Shown here in pieces: positions 2,199 to 7,126 of a stretch of 64,000 nt of DNA. How positions within the stretch are numbered: position 1 is the first letter of the stretch; each line of letters opens with the position of its first letter. The DNA is taken from positions 1 to 64,000 of the forward strand of contig DYEA01000004.1 of the NCBI GenBank assembly GCA_020725885.1. Reading direction: 5' to 3'. This DNA is from Slackia sp. (GTDB lineage Bacteria; Actinomycetota; Coriobacteriia; Anaerosomatales; Anaerosomataceae). Made by a program: the position numbers and the translations under genes. The notes under the pieces are model-generated. The model ran no database searches. It saw nothing but the letters and a program-made list of their open reading frames with translations, and was not told the origin of the DNA.

Positions 2199-2429
2199 GC
2201 TTCCATCCGGGTCTGTGGTTGCGGGCGCTACGGCGCCCTAGTCCAGGGTAGGCGCGGCCGAAAGGACCCACGTAAGCCGGAGGCCATGCCTCCGTGTGAG
2301 CATGGCGCGCCTTAGGGGTAAGTCGCACCGTCCGCTTCGGCGGGCGAGAGGGCCGGTAGTGAGATAGCATCAAGCAAAAGCCCCAGTGCGCGAGTGTGGG
2401 GCCAAAGACCAGGTCAGCCGGATGGAAGC
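2199..2429 (+). ncRNA. structured RNA, probable raiA-motif RNA
   Basis: About 231 nt lie without a coding frame between comFC and a lipoprotein gene. The two ends form a perfect 12-bp stem (2199-2210 with 2418-2429). Inside are four clear hairpins: 2223-2238 (6 bp, UACG loop), 2283-2306 (7 bp), 2329-2346 (7 bp, UUCG loop) and 2380-2402 (6 bp). Another possible helix pairs 2250-2257 with 2307-2314. The raiA-motif RNA is known from Firmicutes and Actinobacteria next to comFC and raiA/hpf. Here comFC is directly upstream and hpf is 4 kb downstream. I could not check the covariance model, so the class name is inferred from synteny, length and complexity. A weak likeness to the SRP RNA apical loop at 2410-2429 is explained by the closing stem. 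Confidence 0.66.
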
Positions 2430-2458: not shown

Positions 2459-3331
2459 ATGAACCGACGCCTGCTCCGGACGGCAGCTGCGCTCGCGACG
2501 CTCGGCGTGCTCGGTGCGCTCGTGACGGGCTGTCAGAAGAAGCCGGCCGAACCAGCGCTCACGCCTAAGATCGCTCCGCCTGCGATCAAGCAAGCCGGAG
2601 TGCTGCGGGTCGCGATCGACCCGACCCAGCCGCCGTTCGCAGGCGCCGTGGACGGCCAGACCGTCGGGATGGACGTCGACGTCGCTGCAGCGGTGGCAGA
2701 ACGGCTGGGCTTGAAGCTCGAGCTCGTCGAGCTCGGGTGGAAGGAGATTCCGAAGGCCGTGGCGAACCGCACGGTCGACCTGGGCCTGGGAGCCATCCCG
2801 ATCACGGAGGCCGTCTTGGCCGACGTGTCCGTTGCCGGGTCGTACGCGACCGACGGCATCGGCCTGTTCGCCGTGACGGCGACGGACACAGCGGAGACTA
2901 CCGCGCCGATCAGCCCGAGCGAAGCGGCAGCCCGTGTCGCGAACGCGAAGGTCGGGTGCCAGAAGGAGTCGGCGGCGCAGTGGTTCCTCGAATCCGAGTT
3001 CTGGGAAGGCTACGCGAAGACCTATGACACGCTCCGTGCGGCGTTCGACGCGCTGAAAGCGGGCGAGATCGACTACGTCGCGTGCGACGCATTCGTTGGC
3101 GCGTATCTCGCGCGCGACTACGAGTCGATCTCGTTCATCGGGTCGCTCGGAGAACCCACGCCGCTCGGCGCGCTCGTCGCGAAAGACTCCCCAGAGCTCG
3201 AGACGAGCGTCAGGGAAGTCCTCGATGCGATGGCTGCCGACGGGACGCTTGCTGCGATCCGTGCGAAGTGGGTCGGAGACTTGCCTGACATCCGGGCGGA
3301 CGCGAGCGCCGAGCAGACTGGAACGCCCTGA
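2459..3331 (+). CDS. amino-acid ABC transporter lipoprotein (SBP_bac_3), canonical order
   Basis: The 290-residue lipoprotein has a signal peptide ending in the lipobox LVTGC (Cys25). The mature part is a family 3 solute-binding protein in the usual lobe order. It opens with GVLRVAIDPTQPPFAG, followed by GMDVDVAAAVAERLG and LGAIPITE, and ends with a helix containing AIRAKWVGDLP. It should bind a polar amino acid or related molecule outside the membrane and deliver it to the permease at 4435-5688. The ATG at 2459 is chosen because GGAGG sits at 2446-2450. The start lies only 30 nt after the structured RNA, with no terminator between, so read-through from the RNA promoter is likely. Confidence 0.88.
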   Translation: MNRRLLRTAAALATLGVLGALVTGCQKKPAEPALTPKIAPPAIKQAGVLRVAIDPTQPPFAGAVDGQTVGMDVDVAAAVAERLGLKLELVELGWKEIPKAVANRTVDLGLGAIPITEAVLADVSVAGSYATDGIGLFAVTATDTAETTAPISPSEAAARVANAKVGCQKESAAQWFLESEFWEGYAKTYDTLRAAFDALKAGEIDYVACDAFVGAYLARDYESISFIGSLGEPTPLGALVAKDSPELETSVREVLDAMAADGTLAAIRAKWVGDLPDIRADASAEQTGTP

Positions 3332-3480: not shown

Positions 3481-4350
3481 ATGAGCACGTTCCGCAAGAC
3501 GCTCGTGCTGCTCGTCGTGTGCGCGCTCGCGCTCGGCGCGTTCGCTCTCGGGGGCTGCGCGAAGAAGGAGGACACCGGCACGGGCGGCGAGACCGGCGCC
3601 CGCGTCATCAAGAGCGTCGACGACCTGAAGGAAGGCGACAAGGTCGGCGTGCAGTCCGGCACGACCGGTGAGGAGTGGGCGAAGGCGAACCTGGAGCCGA
3701 AGGGCATCAAGGTCGTCCCGTACGACGACATCCTGCTCGCGTTCCAGGCGCTGCAGGCCGGCGACGTCATCGGCGTCATCAACGACCTGCCGATCTCGCA
3801 GGACGTCGTGAAGGACGAGGCGCGGGGCCTGGAGATCGTCCAGGAGATCAAGACGGACGAGACCTACGGCTTCGCGTTCAACAAGAACAACCCGACGCTG
3901 CGCGACGCCGTGAACTGGGCGCTTGCGGAGGTCATCAAAGATGGCACCTACAACGAGATCTACAAGAAGTGGTTTGGCTCCGAGCCCATGTCGATGCCTA
4001 AGGCCACGAGCGGCGTGACCGAGAAGCCCGCAGGCGAGATCAAGACCCTCACGCCTGGCAAGATCATCGTCGGCTCCGACACGGCGTTCCCGCCGTTCGA
4101 GAACGTCGAGGACGGCGAGATCGTCGGCTTCGACGTCGACCTGATGAAGGCGATCGGCGAGAAGCTCGGCATGCAGGTCGAGTTCAAGAGCTACAAGTTC
4201 GACGCGCTGATCACGGGCCTGCAGGCAGGCACCGAGTTCGACATGGTCGCGTCGGCGATGACCATCACGGACGTGCGCAAGCAGTCGGTAGACTTCTCCG
4301 ACCCGTACATCAACTCGAACCAGTCGCTTGCAGTCCGCAAGGCGCAGTAG
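3481..4350 (+). CDS. amino-acid ABC transporter lipoprotein, circularly permuted SBP_bac_3
   Basis: This is a 289-residue lipoprotein with lipobox LGGC (Cys26). The two halves of a family 3 solute-binding protein occur in reverse order. Residues about 40-166 carry what is normally the second half (SVDDLKEGDKVGVQSGTTGEE, then NDLPISQDVVKD and the end helix YNEIYKKWFG). After a Pro/Lys/Thr linker, residues about 193-289 carry what is normally the first half (IIVGSDTAFPPFENV, GFDVDLMKAIGEKLG, SAMTITDVRK, VDFSDPYI). The gene then stops at the point where the hinge would normally continue. The total length equals one ordinary SBP. It has its own signal peptide, ribosome site and promoter, so a broken gene is unlikely. 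Its partner is the downstream permease/ATPase pair. Confidence 0.88.
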   Translation: MSTFRKTLVLLVVCALALGAFALGGCAKKEDTGTGGETGARVIKSVDDLKEGDKVGVQSGTTGEEWAKANLEPKGIKVVPYDDILLAFQALQAGDVIGVINDLPISQDVVKDEARGLEIVQEIKTDETYGFAFNKNNPTLRDAVNWALAEVIKDGTYNEIYKKWFGSEPMSMPKATSGVTEKPAGEIKTLTPGKIIVGSDTAFPPFENVEDGEIVGFDVDLMKAIGEKLGMQVEFKSYKFDALITGLQAGTEFDMVASAMTITDVRKQSVDFSDPYINSNQSLAVRKAQ

Positions 4351-4404: not shown

Positions 4405-4434
4405 TACGGTATCATGCACCGCAAGGAGGAGCGC

Positions 4435-5688
4435 GTGAGGCGCAAACTGCTGGGCACCATCATCAGGATCGCATACGCGGTGCTTCTGGTCGCGGGCACC
4501 GTGGCGTTGCTGACCATGACCGGTCCGGAGCGGTTGCTCTACGAGCGCCCCGCGGAGCGCGGCAAGAGCGGCATGGTGAGCGACGTCTACGTCGTTCCTC
4601 CGACGCTCGATACAGTCAGCATCGGCAAGCAGAACGCGAACGTGGTGCTGCCCCACGCTGTCCTCGCGCCCGGCAGCGCCGTGCTCCTGCGCAGAGAGCC
4701 CCCGGGCGGCGGCCTCGGGAAGTCCGCGTGGGTCGTCCAGTCAGCCGAGACGTCGCCGAGCCCGCTTCTCGTCAACGGCGTACGGGCGTCGAGCGGTCTG
4801 CCGCTCGCGGACGGGGACGTGCTCACCGTCGGGGGAGTAGAGGTCACCTTCACGAGCGGCCGCCGCGGGATCCTCGGCGCGCTCGACTGGTGGGAGGCGG
4901 GCAAGGTCTCGCACCTGTTCGCGTCGCCGAAGGTGATCTCGCAGGCGTTCCCGATCGTCTTGGCCGCATTCCCGGTATCGCTTCTATGCGTGCTTGTCGC
5001 CTATGGGCTCGCAATCCCGGGCGGGCTCGCGCTCGCGTTCATGAAGATGGCGCGCTCGCGATGGTTCCGATTCCCGGCGACCGCCTACGTCGACTTCATC
5101 CGCGGCACGCCGCTGTTCTTGCAGATCCTCATCGTGTTCTTCGGGCTGCCGTTGCTGCCGCCCTGGAAGGCGTTGGTCGACGCGTTCCCGGCCATGAACA
5201 ACCCCGGCCCGTTCGGTCCGACGTACTCGCTGTACCTGCGCGCGTTCGTCGTGCTGTCATTCAACTCTGCAGCCTACATGGCAGAGATCTTCCGTGCGGG
5301 CATCCAGTCCATCCACAAGGGCCAGATGGAAGCGGCTCGGTCGCTCGGCATGACGACGGCGCAGGCGATGACCTTCGTCATCATCCCACAGACCGTCAGG
5401 CGCATCCTTCCGACGATGATGTCCGAGTTCATCCTGCTGTTCAAAGACACCTCGCTCTTCGCGGCTGTCGGGATGGGCGAGATCGTGATGAAAGCGAGGG
5501 AGGTCGCGGCGTCGAGCTACAACGTGTCGCCATACCTGCTCGCTGCTGCGTTCTACCTGGTGATCACCATCCCGCTCGGCCGGCTTGTGCAGCAGCTTGA
5601 GAACCGGCTGGCGAAGTCGGAAGGCGGCGCGATCTCGGTGTCAGAGGCGCGGCCGACCGTGGACTCCGAGCACGCGGTCGCGGTGTGA
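4435..5688 (+). CDS. amino-acid ABC transporter permease with N-terminal FHA-like domain
   Basis: The protein has 417 residues. A first membrane segment covers residues about 6-28. Residues about 58-140 look like an FHA-type beta sandwich, with [37 protein letters not shown] in the order and spacing of FHA cores. The rest (about 165-400) is a HisM/GlnP-type permease with the PRGTP-like [10 protein letters not shown] motif and the EAA loop [14 protein letters not shown]. With an N-in topology the FHA-like part would lie outside the membrane, which is unusual for FHA domains. GTG at 4435 is chosen because AAGGAGG sits at 4423-4429; an in-frame ATG at 4414 lacks a ribosome site. The FHA assignment rests on pattern only. 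Confidence 0.85.
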
Positions 5689-5701
5689 GAGGGGTTCGGG
5701 C

Positions 5702-6445
5702 GTGACGAAGAACGGCGAACCGGTCGTCCGCATCCGAGGGCTTCGCAAGCGCTTCGGCGACGTCGAGGTGCTGCGCGGCGTCGACATGGACGTGCACAAA
5801 GGCGAGGTGGTGGTCATCCTCGGACCTTCGGGCTCCGGGAAGTCGACGCTGCTTCGATGCGTGAACCGGCTCGAGGAGCCGACCGGCGGCGAGGTGTGGT
5901 TCGAAGACACGCTCGTCAACAGCCCGAAGACCGACATCAACGCCGTGCGCGAGAAGATCGGCATGGTGTTCCAGAGCTTCAACCTGTTCCCGCACTTGAC
6001 GGCCAAGGGCAACGTGATGCTCGCGCAGCGCAAAGTGCTGAAGCGCTCGAAGGAGGAGGCCGAGCGCATCGCCATCGAGCAGCTGACGCGGGTCGGGCTC
6101 GCCGACCGAGTCGACTACTATCCGGCGCAGCTCTCGGGCGGACAGCAGCAGCGCGTGGCGATCGCCCGGGCGCTCGCGATGGATCCGCACGTCATGCTGT
6201 TCGACGAGGTGACGTCCGCCCTCGACCCAGAGCTCGTTCGAGGCGTTCTCGACGTCATGAAGCAGCTTGCGTTGGGCGGCATGACGATGCTGGTGGTGAC
6301 CCACGAGATGGGCTTCGCGCGCGACGTCGCCGACCGCGTCGTGTTCATGGACGGCGGCGTGATCGTCGAGGAGGGCCTGCCGCAAGAGGTCTTCGACAAC
6401 CCCAAGCACGAGCGGACGAAAGACTTCCTGGGGCACATCCGGTAG
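5702..6445 (+). CDS. polar amino-acid ABC transporter ATPase
   Basis: This 247-residue ATPase is of the GlnQ/HisP class. It has Walker [10 protein letters not shown], the Q-loop [12 protein letters not shown] typical of amino-acid importers, the signature LSGGQQQR, Walker [13 protein letters not shown] and the switch His in VVTHEMGFA. It powers import through the permease encoded 13 bp upstream. The GTG at 5702 gives the standard N-terminus; the longer open frame overlaps the permease. With both lipoprotein genes it forms a complete import system. Whether the two lipoproteins share the same permease is inferred from position. Confidence 0.93.
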
Positions 6446-6586: not shown

Positions 6587-7126
6587 ATGAACACGATCGT
6601 GAAGGGTCGCCACATGGAGGTCACGCCTTCTCTGCGCGAGTACGCGGAGGAGAAGATCGGGCGGGTCGCGAAGCTGCTGAACGACCACATGGTCATGAGC
6701 GTGGAGATCGAGCTCAGCGCGGAGCGCAACCCCGCGATCGAGAAGCGGCATGTGGTAGAGGTCACGATGTTCACGAAGGGCCACGTCATCCGGGCGAAGG
6801 AAGCGGCCATCGACATGTATGCGGCCATCGACCTCGTGTCTGAGAAGCTCGAGCGGCAGGTGCAGAAGCTCCGGACGAAGATGTTCGACAGGCACAAGGC
6901 GGCGCCGCAGGTCGCGACGGTGGCTGAAGCGCCGGGCGAGGAGCGTGAGCCCAGCATCGTGAAGCGTAAGGTCATCGAGGTCAAGCCGATGGCGCCGGAG
7001 GAGGCGGCCCTCCAGATGGAGCTTCTCGGCCACGACTTCTTCGTGTTCGCCTCTGCGGAGACGGAAGGCATCAACGTGCTCTATCGCAGGAGCGATGGCG
7101 ACTACGGGCTGATCGTCCCGCGGTGA
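6587..7126 (+). CDS. hpf: long-form ribosome hibernation promoting factor
   Basis: The protein has 179 residues. The N-terminal RaiA/YfiA domain (about 1-100) begins MNTIVKGRHMEVTPSLREYAEEK. The C-terminal dimerisation domain (about 120-179) has VIEVKPMAPEEAALQMELLGHDFFVF and NVLYRR-DGDYGLI, as in long HPF proteins that form 100S ribosome dimers. TAAGGAGG at 6573-6580 supports the ATG. In many Gram-positive genomes this gene follows comFC or the raiA-motif RNA; here a four-gene transporter separates them. It is followed by a strong terminator, so it ends its transcript. Confidence 0.94.
   Translation: MNTIVKGRHMEVTPSLREYAEEKIGRVAKLLNDHMVMSVEIELSAERNPAIEKRHVVEVTMFTKGHVIRAKEAAIDMYAAIDLVSEKLERQVQKLRTKMFDRHKAAPQVATVAEAPGEEREPSIVKRKVIEVKPMAPEEAALQMELLGHDFFVFASAETEGINVLYRRSDGDYGLIVPR

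Follow-up and report, generated by a model that had tools for sequence, protein, structure and literature searches.

A lipoprotein gene, SBP1, lies close to the start of the 64,000-nucleotide stretch of DNA analysed here (the window). An earlier note, made from the letters of this DNA, had read the two halves of its product as exchanged. Is SBP1 a working circular permutant of the amino-acid binding proteins, and if so, how did it arise and spread? The reading that we favor, with a probability of roughly 0.86 for the whole explanation, is that SBP1 is the working, naturally permuted binding protein of a GlnH/ArtJ-type importer, with one origin in the order Anaerosomatales, cassette transfer within that order, and further origins elsewhere.

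Order of the halves in SBP1

The protein, which starts with MSTFRKTL, matches the Pfam family SBP_bac_3 in two stretches that stand in reverse order (E 1.9e-41 for the whole protein). Similarly, the NCBIfam models for glutamine, cystine, arginine, and lysine binding proteins each match it in two pieces. A sequence search of the PDB gave strong matches of residues 41–170 to the second half of GlnBP-type proteins (AncQR 107–232, GlnBP 100–225) and of residues 191–288 to the first half (AncQR 10–105). The swapped halves within one 289-residue lipoprotein are therefore borne out by both searches, the family profile being found in both halves and no single N-then-C match being obtained. The top PDB match was the tandem GlnPQ SBD1-SBD2 (6h30), aligned in one piece across the SBD1-C/SBD2-N junction, as expected because the order in SBP1 is C-then-N. 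SBP1 is an SBP_bac_3 binding protein by descent and, we infer, by function, and a permutant by topology. The neighboring lipoprotein, SBP2, has the standard order in Pfam, as the earlier note had stated. Since domain tools show proteins such as SBP1 only as two partial SBP_bac_3 matches, more permutants may have been overlooked. The positions of all features are listed in Table 1.

Table 1. Features at the SBP1 locus, in positions of the window.
Feature	Position	Strand	Remarks
raiA RNA (RF03072)	2202–2426	+	167 bits; between comF and SBP2
SBP2, standard-order SBP_bac_3 lipoprotein	2459–3331	+	
SBP1, circularly permuted SBP_bac_3 lipoprotein	3481–4350	+	289 aa plus stop; same order in 23 orthologues
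Signal peptide with lipobox LGGC; lipid attached at Cys26	3481–3558	+	From sequence
First-placed half, canonically second (lobe 2 and crossing 2 with the C-terminal helices of lobe 1)	3601–3990	+	
Core of new linker, between what were the C- and N-termini	3991–4044	+	17–20 residues long across the 23 permuted proteins
Last-placed half, canonically first (lobe 1 and crossing 1)	4045–4347	+	
Amino-acid ABC permease with N-terminal extension	4414–5688	+	BPD_transp_1 at residues 200–400; inherited with SBP1
N-terminal extension of the permease	4414–4935	+	About 170 residues
ABC transporter ATPase	5699–6445	+	Inherited with SBP1
hpf/raiA gene	6587–7123		After the four transporter genes

The window comes from a genome of 1.83 Mb in 17 contigs, which is related to Coriobacteriaceae bacterium EMTCatB1 (93% identity). 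We searched 69 genomes of the order for proteins with the same arrangement and found the swapped protein as one full-length match in 23 of them, at 65–93% identity; nearly all of the remaining genomes carry the same protein in standard order. The permuted genomes span eight families, and one copy (genome G002) lies in an assembly that consists of a single 1.84 Mb contig. An order-wide comparison revealed a conserved locus, permease-like gene–comF–SBP2–SBP1–permease–ATPase–hpf, in which the SBP1 place is taken by the permuted form in 23 sequences and by the standard form in 40, with up to 72–76% identity per half. Both forms occur within one family (f1) and within three genera (g3, g8, and g9). 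The permease and ATPase adjoining SBP1 are of the amino-acid type, as in cluster F. Few natural circular permutants have an extant orthologue in standard order that occupies the identical locus and is 70% identical.

Linker anatomy and a possible route to the permutation

In the mature standard sisters, the lipid-bearing Cys is followed by 18–30 flexible residues, the first half up to NQSLAV, a short loop, IATVDDL, and the second half up to FGAEPLSIP. In the mature permuted proteins, the Cys is followed by flexible residues, IKSVDDL, the second half up to FGSEPMSMP, the linker core, and the first half, which ends in NQSLAVRKAQ-stop. The new linker thus retains the old tail (EPLSIP) together with the old N-terminal linker region, which is what fusion in tandem followed by loss of the outer halves should leave behind. 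Moreover, in a relative (G160, locus L178) a single open reading frame of 1016 residues is a tandem SBP-SBP-permease fusion, so that a fused binding protein does occur in the class Coriobacteriia. The swapped halves, the linker remnants, and this fusion lend good support to the origin proposed in the earlier note, a tandem duplication from which the outer halves were lost. By this putative route, tandem copies of an ancestral standard-order gene would have become fused and then shed their outer halves, so that signal peptide–second half–linker–first half remained.

Probable independent origins outside the order

In a family of another order of the same class (f25), most SBP1 genes are standard. 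Three members are permuted: one (G382, L180) is cut where the window protein is (cut A), and two (G378, L179, and G399, L227) are cut about 30 residues later (cut B) and end in SGTTGxDWVRENLM-stop. In another group of the phylum (f30), G636 is permuted, while G444 and G578 are standard in the same gene context, at 65–78% identity per half. The f30 case and the cut A case in f25 each come from one draft genome. All binding proteins at four Kribbella loci (L037, L041, L042, and L046) are in standard order, and in one scan of genome contigs, other phyla included, the remaining matches were all standard.

When the order and f25 were taken together, the AU test excluded a clade uniting every permuted protein (p 1.4e-7), and a single origin was accordingly rejected. 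With f30 added, the tree has four label changes, three of them forced by starred branches. Together, these trees imply that at least three independent permutations would have occurred, one in the order, one or two in f25, and one in f30. The count for f25 is an even bet. The three members could descend from one permutation with overlapping ends, trimmed to cut A or cut B, for a total of three origins and not four: one origin within f25 was not rejected (p 0.18 and 0.27), and the stretch at the N-terminus of the cut A protein is the one kept at the C-terminus of the cut B proteins. The best trees nevertheless set G382 apart from G378 and G399, if weakly. With either count, related Actinomycetota would have acquired comparable permutations on at least two further, separate occasions.

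Inheritance of the cassette within the order

In a tree of 63 SBP1 proteins of the order, made with the halves rotated, all permuted proteins fall in one clade (98/93) next to the standard forms of families f2, f7, and f13. Changes between the permuted and standard labels number one on the SBP1 tree, two for the permease, and three for the ATPase, versus 12 for SBP2 (seven forced by starred branches) and 12 for the four flanking genes (nine forced). A single permuted clade was rejected on the flanking-gene tree (p 1.7e-54), these four neighboring genes, treated with a quick method, serving as the species tree. SBP1 is inherited with the permease and ATPase; SBP2 is not inherited with this cassette. 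That SBP1 and SBP2 serve the same transporter, as the earlier note had it, is something that we can only infer.

The permuted allele thus seems to be scattered over the species tree, with SBP1, permease, and ATPase exchanged as a cassette. The simplest reading is a single permutation in the order, after which the cassette would have moved between species into the same locus. We consider it unlikely that the scatter instead goes back to a pair of ancient alleles, or to paralogous cassettes, that were lost repeatedly, even though losing one of two old alleles would look the same as a transfer. One draft genome, G025, does carry both forms, the permuted and standard cassettes lying on two short contigs (L165 and L141). 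It is, however, listed at 7% contamination and is probably two species binned together, and no other genome has both forms. Repeated loss would also require that at least nine label changes be parallel losses at one place. Exchange of the cassette is retained here as the preferred reading, and on this view species exchange a transporter at a fixed locus, the binding protein moving along with its permease and ATPase.

Predicted structure and hinge

We modeled the mature permuted protein with AlphaFold2, using alignments of the window and related loci; it reached a pLDDT of 93.7 and a pTM of 0.88 with an alignment built from rotated halves, so that the fold is partly implied by homology. The standard protein of G042 gave 94.4 and 0.86. 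As the earlier note had anticipated, the permuted chain is predicted to fold as one bilobed unit, with confidence across both lobes, which is the single-chain fold of cluster F. Strands and helices agree after rotation, the standard series [E29 ... E116 | E137 ... H239-248] becoming [E29 ... H131-140 | E169 ... E256-261] in the permuted protein. In chain-order structure alignment, the standard model was covered completely (4la9_B, Z 27, 222 residues), and the permuted model mostly by halves (4kpt, Z 12.1 over 127 residues; 6gpc, Z 10.6 over 93 residues), because the comparison runs in chain order. Foldseek also aligns in chain order, so its low TM-scores for the permuted model were to be expected and do not speak against the fold.

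With the hinge positions taken as those generally assigned to GlnBP, the chain is cut in a loop of lobe 2, past the strand next after the first hinge crossing. The suggestion that the hinge crossings are rewired was not supported, since the cut sits within lobe 2, past crossing strand 1, and each crossing is still continuous chain. According to the model, both crossings should stay intact in SBP1, and it is the lipid anchor that changes lobes, leaving lobe 1 for lobe 2. The chain would close into a normal two-lobed clamp with the old ends linked, and the new ends, with the anchor, would sit in the lobe-2 loop instead of lobe 1. As the lobes are joined in a new way, one might expect a domain-swapped or higher oligomer, in which each clamp is made from lobes of two chains. 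This is very unlikely, given the confident monomer model (pTM 0.88) and the presence of both natural crossings within one chain, by which swapping is not forced.

Ligand-binding residues and selection

All of the permuted proteins compared, and the six sister standard forms, carry equivalents of GlnH D10, F50, T70, R75, and D157. For example, SBP1 T261, R266, and D102 correspond to T70, R75, and D157, which bind the alpha-amino and alpha-carboxyl groups. GlnH K115, G119, and H156 are replaced by Q, T, and N in the permuted and sister standard forms alike. Since the binding residues are common to both, the two forms should each bind an L-amino acid, most likely the same one and not necessarily glutamine. 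In its role within the importer, SBP1 would hand this ligand over to the downstream permease and ATPase.

Pairwise dN/dS was 0.06–0.14 among the permuted genes (about 0.07) versus 0.07–0.11 among the standard ones, and SBP1 is under strong purifying selection. The tandem SBP-SBP-permease fusion of a relative might invite the view that SBP1 is the degenerate relic of a tandem pair with ligand binding gone, but a dN/dS of about 0.07, fully kept binding residues, conservation over many genera, and joint inheritance with the permease make this highly improbable. An assembly or sequencing error joining two truncated genes was rejected as having a negligible chance: most relatives are draft or metagenome assemblies, yet the same junction recurs in 23 genomes of eight families, one a single contig, and the gene has its own signal peptide, a near-constant linker, and strong purifying selection.

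Comparison with known binding proteins

SBP1 resembles the standard cluster F binding proteins (GlnH, ArtJ, AncQR, and the GlnPQ SBDs) in the family of both halves, predicted fold elements, core amino-acid-binding residues, and operon partners, and differs from them in that its halves are reversed and lobe 2 carries the termini and the lipid anchor. Among ABC binding proteins, the one natural permutant that we found in the literature searched is TpMglB-2 (Tp0684), a "Type Ic/cluster Bc" glucose-binding protein with a conserved circular permutation (PMC4990184). TpMglB-2 is bilobed, and its ligand binding and conformational change have been shown experimentally; it belongs to Type I/cluster B, is cut in the N lobe, and has an added fourth hinge crossing (PMC4990184). 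Both proteins are circularly permuted binding lipoproteins of ABC importers. SBP1, however, belongs to SBP_bac_3 and not to the Type I/cluster B sugar family, is cut in lobe 2 with no crossing added, and differs further by its several origins and by the standard and permuted alleles at one locus. The order of SBP1 is also that of the inner C-linker-N junction in GlnPQ-type tandem SBDs, but these are two complete domains fused to the permease, whereas SBP1 is one permuted domain with a separate permease gene. For the cluster F amino-acid family, no natural permutant was found in a literature search that took in few subscription journals.

The permuted and standard pairs offer a natural test of how a binding protein tolerates rewiring of its chain. 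With several independent cases, there are natural pairs in which the effect of moved termini and a moved membrane tether could be measured in a Venus-flytrap protein. It is conceivable, though we lean against it, that amino-acid binding proteins of this branch of the Actinomycetota were permuted repeatedly, in place and at the same lobe-2 loop, because a shift of the lipid anchor and free ends out of lobe 1 and into lobe 2 alters docking to the permease in a way that is under selection, with permuted and standard cassettes competing and replacing each other between species.

Other observations at the locus

By eye, the N-terminal extension of the permease comprises one helix and an FHA-like stretch, the latter with no Pfam match. 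Several relatives have a short extension or none, and the one in the window does not resemble those of f25 and G160. The G160 reading frame (L178, 2298–5345, minus strand) combines a signal peptide and a pair of complete SBP_bac_3 domains with an extension and the permease, a GlnPQ-like fusion in Coriobacteriia. In all 16 of the related loci scanned, the raiA RNA occupies the equivalent position immediately before SBP2, and it may lead the whole transporter-hpf operon. Finally, within a genus, SBP2 is 67% identical versus 90–95% for SBP1, so that SBP2 evolves much faster despite sharing the operon.
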